Notes under the pieces: model-generated
Seen by the model: only the letters and a program-made list of their open reading frames with translations
Told to the model about the DNA's origin: nothing
The model's database searches: none
Position numbers and translations under genes: made by a program
From: Nitrospirota bacterium
Lineage (GTDB): Bacteria > Nitrospirota > Thermodesulfovibrionia > Thermodesulfovibrionales > UBA6898
DNA: 40,477 nt
NCBI GenBank assembly: GCA_021811105.1
Contig: JAJZPM010000033.1
Span: 1 to 40,477, forward strand
Direction of reading: 5' to 3'
Shown here: in pieces, positions 37,772 to 40,198 of the stretch
Layout: every line of letters starts with the position of its first letter
Position numbering within the stretch: the first letter of the stretch is position 1

Positions 37772-38182
37772 TTACTTCCCTCCCCTGATGATATAGTCGA
37801 GCAATACGTCGTCGAGGCTCCTGGAAATTTGCTGCTTTGCGCCGGCCTTCTGTTCCTGCGGTTGCTCCTCCTGCTTGACTGCAGAGGTTTCCGGCTGTTT
37901 TTCTTCCTGCGAATCTCCGGGTGCATCTGCGACGTCGCCGTGCACGCCCCGGATCAACTCCTTCATCATGGCCTTGTGTTGTTCTTTCATCAACTCCCGT
38001 ACTTTCTCTTTGTAATCGGGGCTGGAAATCAGGTCCGCGTAACTGCTCTTCTTCGAGGCAAGTATGGTGCCCTTGTAATAGAGCAGGGTGATTACGAGCG
38101 GGTTTTTGAGGCCGTTATCCTCTGTCTGGACATGGTAGAGCTTGCCCTTATAAGGCACATTGGTATTATAACCGACTAACAT
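37772..38182 (-). CDS. Conserved small protein at the head of the ftsEX operon
   Basis: A 136-residue soluble protein. The N-terminal part (LVGYNTNVPYKGKLYHVQTE, then NPLVITLLYYKGTILASKKSSY) looks like a compact beta-domain that I recall as conserved in Desulfobacterota and Nitrospirota. The C-terminal part is a Gln/Glu-rich linker ending in a short helix (LDDVLLDYII). No known function. TATAAT at 38213-38218 (minus strand) gives a leader of about 25 bases. It ends eight bases before ftsE, whose ribosome-binding site is inside its 3' end, so it is cotranscribed and may have a division-related role. Confidence 0.75.
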   Translation of the reverse strand: MLVGYNTNVPYKGKLYHVQTEDNGLKNPLVITLLYYKGTILASKKSSYADLISSPDYKEKVRELMKEQHKAMMKELIRGVHGDVADAPGDSQEEKQPETSAVKQEEQPQEQKAGAKQQISRSLDDVLLDYIIRGGK

Positions 38183-38341: not shown

Positions 38342-39385
38342 CTATTTTTCGACATGGATATGGATGTCATCCTTTAGCTCCCCCGTCACATCGCCGATGT
38401 AGGCGGCCAGAAGCCCCTCGCTCTGCATGGTGCTGATGAGTCTCTCCTTCTTCCCCGTGGGCACGAAGATGAGAAGGCCGCCCGATGTCTGCGCATCGTT
38501 GAAGAGGATCTTTTCGGGTTCTGAAACCCCCTCGCCGAACGTGACGTGCCTGCTGAAACTCTTGATATTGGCGATCGTGCCTCCCGGCACCTTGTTGAGG
38601 CCGATAAGTCTCGCGGCCTCCTCGAAAAAAGGCACCTGCCCGGAAAAAATCTTTGCCCTGCATCTGCTGGCGGTGAGCACCTCGTTTAAGTGGCCGATCA
38701 GGCCGAAGCCGGTGACGTCCGTTGCAGTGCTGACGCCCACTTCAATCATGATCTCGCTCGCCCGTCTGTTCAGCATTGCCATCGAAGAAGTGAATTCCCG
38801 GATCACCCCGTCGCTGCAAAGGCCGGCCTTCACGCCGGTAGAGATAATTCCGGTGCCGATCTTTTTTGTAAGGACGATCGCGTCGCCCACCCTTGCCTTG
38901 GAGTTGTCGAGGATCTTGCCGGGATGAATTACGCCGAGGACGGCAAAGCCGTACTTCGGCTCTTTGTCCCTGATCGTATGACCCCCTACGACCGATACTC
39001 CCGCCTCCGCCATCTTGTCGATCCCGCCCTGCATGATCGCCTTCAGAGACGGAAAAAAACCGGGCTGCGCCGGGAACATCGCGATATTCAGCGCGGTCAG
39101 CGGCCGTGCACCCATCGCGTAGACATCGGAGAGCGAGTTTGCCGCGGCTATCGCGCCAAACCAGTACGGATCGTCCACAATGGGGGTAAAGAAGTCGGCC
39201 GTCAGGACAACCGCAATATCATCGGTAATGCGGTAGACGCCAGCGTCATCGGCATTTGCATACCCGACAAGGACATTAGGGTCGGTGATTGGTGGCAGCT
39301 GCCCCAGCACCTGGGACAGGTCCGAAGGACTGAATTTGGCTGCTCAACCTGCGCAGCTTGACAGTTCAGTGAGTCTGATGTCCAT
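38342..39385 (-). CDS. selD: Selenide, water dikinase (SelD), a selenoprotein with Sec14
   Basis: A 347-residue ATP-dependent enzyme that makes selenophosphate from selenide, the selenium donor for Sec-tRNA and selenouridine. Reading from ATG 39385, behind GGGGGAAAG, codon 14 is TGA (39344-39346) within S-C-A-G-U-A-A-K, exactly where SelD has its active-site Cys or Sec; Lys17 is the catalytic Lys. Later signatures follow: DDAGVYRI, LTADFFTPIVDDPYWFGAIA, GGHTIRDKEPKYG, ATDVTGFGLIGHL, DAQTSGGLLI. Standard gene callers would start at GTG 39310 and lose the first 25 residues, including the catalytic ones. A hairpin after the TGA fits a SECIS. It lies 23 bases after arsR1 and is probably cotranscribed. 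Confidence 0.95.
39302..39346 (-). promoter_or_regulatory. Candidate bacterial SECIS element after the selD UGA
   Basis: Downstream of the UGA, CA-GTCC-TTC-GGAC-C-TG forms a small stem with a UUC loop (or UUCG-type apex) and one bulged C, about 16-20 bases from the UGA. That is the distance needed for SelB-dependent decoding. The exact fold is my hand estimate. Confidence 0.5.
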
Positions 39386-39408
39386 CTTTCCCCCTTTCTC
39401 TACAGTTG

Positions 39409-39753
39409 CTAATTCGTTCTGTCACCCGGATACTTGCCTTTCTTCGTTATCGGGCAGCACGCGGGTGCGGGAAGAGTGCCCGCATATTCCTTTTTCAGTA
39501 TGTCGAGGATGTCCGGGACCATAGGATCGACGAGGAAATAGCACCGCAGCCTGCCGTCGATATAGTAATCGATAATCCCGTGGTTCCTGAGAAGCGCAAG
39601 GTGCTGTGAAACGTTCGGCTGGCTTATGCCGAGGAAGTCCTCGAAGTCGCTTACGCACTTCACACCCTTCGCGAGTTCATCCAGGATTCTGAGCCTGACT
39701 GGATGCGCGATCACGCGCAGCGTTTCGATTTTATTTTTTTGCGGGAGTGCCAT
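39409..39753 (-). CDS. ArsR-family regulator upstream of selD
   Basis: A 114-residue winged-helix regulator. The helix-turn-helix is VSDFEDFLGISQPNVSQHLA, then LLRNHGIIDYYIDGRLRCYF. Cys residues are at 33 (before the first recognition-side helix), 71, and 99-100 (PACCPIT), so metalloid, thiol or selenium sensing is possible, though the classical ELCVCDL box is reduced to one Cys. It is followed by selD after 23 bases, implying that it controls its own operon. The start overlaps an operator-like region, and the leader is only a few bases. Confidence 0.88.
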   Translation of the reverse strand: MALPQKNKIETLRVIAHPVRLRILDELAKGVKCVSDFEDFLGISQPNVSQHLALLRNHGIIDYYIDGRLRCYFLVDPMVPDILDILKKEYAGTLPAPACCPITKKGKYPGDRTN

Positions 39754-39865: not shown

Positions 39866-40198
39866 TCACTCGTTGGAGACGATGTCGATCAGCTTTGACC
39901 TTTCCTTCATCTGTTCGGTGAGCACCTCGCGCATCAGCACGCATGCCTGCACTACCTTCGGGTTGGCTATGCGGTAATAGATGTTGACTCCATCCCTCCT
40001 CGATTTCAGGATCCCCTTGTGCCTCATCACCGCCAGGTGCTGGGAAACATTCGCCTTTGGCACACCCAGGATATCGACCAGTTCGCCGACCGTTTTTTCA
40101 CCGTCTTTCAGCGAGTTGATGATCTCGAGTCGCTTGGGGCTCGCCAGTGTCTTGCACACCTCGGACTGCATTTCGAACAAGGTTTTGCTCTGTTTCAT
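39866..40198 (-). CDS. Second ArsR-family regulator
   Basis: A 110-residue winged-helix protein: SPKRLEIINSLKDGEKTVGE leads into VDILGVPKANVSQHLAVM, the DNA-recognition unit, then the wing RRDGVNIYYRIA. Two Cys (15 and 86) are far apart in sequence, a pattern used by some persulphide- or redox-sensing ArsR proteins, but this is weak evidence. The start at 40198 is chosen because the promoter -10 box lies seven bases upstream and AGGTA precedes it; a longer frame to 40234 would run through the promoter. About 110 bases separate it from arsR1, which has its own promoter. Confidence 0.86.
   Translation of the reverse strand: MKQSKTLFEMQSEVCKTLASPKRLEIINSLKDGEKTVGELVDILGVPKANVSQHLAVMRHKGILKSRRDGVNIYYRIANPKVVQACVLMREVLTEQMKERSKLIDIVSNE

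Follow-up and report, generated by a model that had tools for sequence, protein, structure and literature searches.

The window analysed here, i.e., the whole stretch of 40,477 nucleotides from a Nitrospirota bacterium, harbors on its minus strand (38342-39385) the gene selD, encoding a selenide, water dikinase (selenophosphate synthetase). When the TGA at codon 14 is read as selenocysteine (Sec), the ORF runs from an ATG at 39385-39383 to a stop codon ending at 38342 and comprises 347 amino acids, with the N-terminus MDIRLTELSSCAGUAAKFSP. The profile TIGR00476 recognizes the read-through protein with 349.5 bits (cut-off 125) over profile positions 1-307 of 311, in one match that spans both sides of the TGA, and the best structure match is the solved Aquifex SelD (2yye, E 5e-66), aligned through the active-site loop. 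The TGA, placed by the initial annotation within S-C-A-G-U-A-A-K, is located at 39346-39344 (minus strand) and occupies the Cys/Sec column of SelD, where the aligned A. aeolicus sequence reads SGCAAK. The G-U-A-A-K segment has the arrangement of the SelD loop, with the predicted Sec in an N-terminal glycine-rich loop where Cys or Sec is found, followed by the essential Lys. Upstream of the ATG, a purine-rich putative ribosome-binding site can be read from the sequence (AAAGGGGGAAAG, 39386-39397, minus strand); the site previously described as strong is plausible, although it is short and lies 4 nt from the ATG.

If genetic code table 11 is applied, the only ORF retrieved in this frame is one of 322 amino acids starting with GTG at 39310, so that the active-site loop of SelD is lost from the annotation, as had been anticipated for ordinary gene calling. 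The existence of this standard-code ORF might suggest that the SelD-like protein begins at the GTG, the TGA being an ordinary stop codon and the upstream frame a product of chance; such a truncated form, however, would be devoid of both the active residue and Lys17.

A gene for an ArsR/SmtB-family regulator (39409-39753, minus strand; NF033788, 74.6 bits) lies upstream of selD with a gap of 23 nt, and the two genes are probably co-transcribed. The regulator ends with a CC motif, and a second ArsR/SmtB-family gene is located upstream of selD at 39866-40198. An orthologue of the nearer gene (70-95% identical) precedes selD in seven more of the 30 relatives described below (8/30 including its own genome), and the ArsR/SmtB genes might control selD in response to selenium or metals. 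Elsewhere in the window, a protein with a RomY N-terminal domain (37772-38182; NF053858, 117.7 bits) is encoded beside an FtsE/FtsX-like pair, and other frames joined by a TGA are present. The window yielded no tRNA in a tRNA search and no match in an Rfam search at gathering scores.

In order to assess the conservation of the TGA, 30 selD sequences from the same order (66-100% identical, the one of the window being counted among them) were compared. All of them contain exactly one TGA, at the same column and preceded by a matching upstream peptide, which excludes chance; thus, the upstream extension and its TGA are both present in close relatives, whose lack of such an extension would have spoken against a Sec-containing enzyme. 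The analysis was extended to a sample of 246 Nitrospirota genomes, 108 of which harbor SelD: by our own count, the in-frame TGA occurs in 101 of these 108, whereas six lack it and one is represented by an N-terminally incomplete fragment. Since the TGA is just one base away from TGC and TGT, a point change of a Cys codon, due to a sequencing error or to the decay of the gene into a pseudogene, might be invoked; this explanation is scarcely credible, given that about 100 other genomes share this TGA, together with the SECIS element and the Sec machinery.

The region following the TGA was supposed to fold into a compact hairpin. The hairpin is real, but the region actually contains two adjacent structures, a short one at 39330-39320 and a SECIS-like one at 39319-39299 (both on the minus strand). 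The latter, a predicted bacterial SECIS (bSECIS) stem-loop with the sequence CUGUCCCA[GGUGC]UGGGGCAG, has a stem of 8-9 bp and a 5-nt apical loop (39311-39307) starting 32 nt past the UGA, and folds with -13.6 kcal/mol (z -3.16). It is kept in all 30 selD sequences, with a loop that always carries [G/C]GU, the GU being invariant, and its stem covaries among them: the pair 31/45 appears as UG, UA, GU, or CG, and the pair 34/42 as CG, UA, or AU. The published bSECIS model calls for a loop of 3-9 nt, a stem of 4-16 bp, a G among the first two bases of the loop, a spacing of 16-37 nt from the UGA, and an energy of at most -7.5 kcal/mol (PMC13188914); the check for a SECIS element after the TGA gave a hairpin agreeing with every one of these values (a 5-nt loop with G as its second base, a stem of 8 bp, a spacing of 32 nt, and -13.6 kcal/mol). 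When the whole 54-nt segment after the UGA is folded as a single sequence, it is only weakly unusual (z -1.6), so that the strong evidence for the predicted bSECIS is the comparative one, the single-sequence fold not being decisive. In the codon alignment of the 30 relatives, codons 18-30 represent the 13-codon window with the lowest synonymous diversity (0.13); the median is 0.57, and the lowest window past codon 35 still has 0.39. This collapse marks selection acting on the RNA. Such a constraint, along with the upstream frame and TGA shared by the 30 relatives, makes a protein starting at GTG 39310 extremely improbable. The short accessory hairpin that lies after the UGA and ahead of the SECIS, GUCC[UUC]GGAC, shows an invariant 4-bp helix in the 30 relatives and a variable loop (UUC in this genome). 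Since its helix never varies, covariation is silent on this structure, which could belong to an extended recoding element.

The genes expected for the decoding of UGA as Sec are all present in the same genome: selA and selB, which score 614 and 373 bits, respectively, and exceed their cut-offs, lie side by side on contig C37, and a tRNA-Sec with the anticodon UCA was retrieved with 65 bits. The column occupied by the TGA, the bSECIS, this machinery, and the relatives all support the proposal of the initial annotation that SelD is itself a selenoprotein; the parallel statement that the organism decodes UGA as Sec is in line with the three genes as well, but Sec might not be the only residue involved, because a tRNA-ReC-like tRNA-Cys is also encoded (see below). 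Judging from the sequence, the region 39385-38342 almost certainly encodes a Sec-containing selenophosphate synthetase whose UGA would be read via SelB and the SECIS, and we infer that Sec is inserted at codon 14 and that catalysis relies on Sec14. It is known that SelB and Sec-tRNA-Sec bind the SECIS and decode the UGA, and that SelD supplies the selenophosphate used by SelA. In this bacterium, SelA would turn Ser-tRNA-Sec into Sec-tRNA-Sec with selenophosphate from SelD, and SelB, sitting on the hairpin just past codon 14, would bring Sec-tRNA-Sec to the UGA, allowing translation to go on. Within the mobile N-terminal loop, Sec14 would carry out catalysis jointly with Lys17, so that SelD would help to make the amino acid of its own active site.

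The gene shares with the known Sec-SelD the protein family, the UGA in the N-terminal loop, the bSECIS inside the coding region, and the occurrence of selA, selB, and selC in the genome, and it differs from them in belonging to a Nitrospirota lineage, in a further hairpin, short and invariant, that separates the UGA from the SECIS, and in the ArsR-family gene upstream. Compared with the Cys-SelD of the Escherichia coli type, the enzyme family and the expected reaction are the same, whereas a Cys is found there at the column corresponding to the UGA. Sec-SelD has been listed, for instance, for Clostridioides difficile and Desulfovibrio vulgaris (PMC1794560); about 81% of the SelD proteins in a reference set of prokaryotes contain Cys and 19% Sec (PMC4561486). 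Among bacterial selenoproteins, Sec-SelD ranks second in how widely it occurs (PMC13188914), so that the title of the initial annotation overstated the novelty of the finding: the Nitrospirota Sec-SelD is a clear addition to a well-known selenoprotein family, correct and ordinary.

The tRNA-Sec model also matches a second sequence of this genome, outside the window (G000:C10:25953-26043; L009 1501-1591; L100 7950-8044), with 62.2 bits (gathering 47). This tRNA-Sec-like tRNA-Cys has a GCA anticodon, U73, an 8-bp acceptor, a long variable arm, and a 5-bp T stem (GTGGG/CCCAC) with no bulge; given that a normal tRNA-Cys is encoded on contig C52, it represents an extra tRNA. By its predicted tRNA-Sec-like architecture, U73, and GCA, it fits the tRNA-ReC/selC* class of tRNA-Cys, reportedly the subject of works by Mukai in 2017 and Vargas-Rodriguez in 2018. 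The selC* molecules have an 8/4 domain with an unpaired A51a, whereas the tRNA on contig C10 shows an 8+5 domain in which the 51a bulge is absent, and for this reason it looks closer to tRNA-ReC than to selC*; the tRNA-ReC with this domain is presumably that of Desulfotomaculum nigrificans. Nitrospirae are among the phyla for which tRNA-Cys of the selC* type have been reported (PMC7609411).

The C10 tRNA lies directly upstream of yedF (192.8 bits), a gene of selenium metabolism (PMC5322559), and ReC-like tRNAs with yedF or selB downstream recur across the order. Pattern matches without tRNA-like pairing (31 loci) were removed, and so were a few others that paired by chance and lacked the 8-bp acceptor plus the TCCA end. 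Of 39 ReC-like loci, 15 are followed on the same strand, at a distance of less than 700 bp, by the start of yedF (11) or selB (4), in comparison with none of eight canonical tRNA-Cys loci, near which no query gene was found. The four selB genes directly downstream of a ReC-like tRNA (G196:C20 and G210:C15, i.e., L103 and L106, plus L133 and L135) form a clade of their own (100/99). The genomes G196 and G210 contain a further selB elsewhere, and the second selB placed after the ReC-like tRNA in these two related genomes resembles the deltaproteobacterial selC*-selB* pairs. Part of this distribution and gene linkage may already be published.

As a ReC-like tRNA-Cys could decode the UGA of selD, Sec is maybe not the sole residue at position 14. 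It might be hypothesized that tRNA-Sec inserts Sec at the codon as long as selenium is available, and that the ReC-like tRNA, likewise acting through SelB, inserts Cys in the absence of selenophosphate; the resulting Cys-SelD would start selenophosphate synthesis, and the cell would not be locked out of Sec. This tentative hypothesis, which appears rather unlikely, would widen the Sec-SelD explanation without excluding it. Besides the extra tRNA of the tRNA-Sec family and the linkage of its relatives to yedF or selB, it draws on the fact that a ReC-type tRNA, the tRNA-Sec-like tRNA-Cys of D. nigrificans, decodes the Sec UGA as Cys through SelB (PMC11415595), and that selenophosphate is made by both Sec- and Cys-SelD (PMC4561486). 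Moreover, 34 of the 37 genomes found via a ReC-like tRNA have a SelD, and all 34 have UGA-SelD; a cultured relative, Thermodesulfovibrio sp. N1, carries both the ReC-like tRNA and UGA-selD. Most of these genomes, however, belong to Nitrospirota, in which almost all SelD genes have the UGA, whether or not ReC was detected, so that the co-occurrence weighs little inside the phylum, and its contrast with the 19% of Sec in the reference SelD is phylogenetically weak; in addition, other bacteria with Sec-SelD cope without ReC. For the same reason (101/108), the presence of ReC fails to separate genomes with UGA-SelD from those with Cys-SelD within the phylum. The more specific proposal, i.e., that the selD UGA is a deliberate two-way codon, read as Cys by tRNA-ReC if selenium is short and as Sec if it is plentiful, thereby bootstrapping SelD without Sec, is to be regarded as still more doubtful.

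In four genomes that are nearly complete and encode selA and selB in full length (G196, G210, G046, and G182), no selD could be recognized, which could reflect either an assembly gap or a true loss. G196 and G210 also carry tRNA-Sec, yedF, DUF3343-like, and cysteine-desulfurase genes; as both retain tRNA-Sec alongside two selB genes and a selA of full length, they were rejected as cases of a full replacement of Sec by Cys.

As far as annotation is concerned, gene callers lose the first 25 residues of SelD, active site included, both in this genome and in its relatives. Sec-SelD as such poses the old question of how Sec synthesis might start if an enzyme required for it contains Sec, and the tRNA context adds a little to the interest of the selD finding: the occurrence of UGA-SelD and of a Cys-type, SelB-type tRNA in one lineage makes this start-up question directly testable. 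A dual reading of the UGA as Sec or Cys, if true, would ease the start-up problem of SelD, and, if the codon were indeed a two-way one, the tight association of tRNA-ReC with yedF, or with a selB of its own, would reflect a regulated switch.
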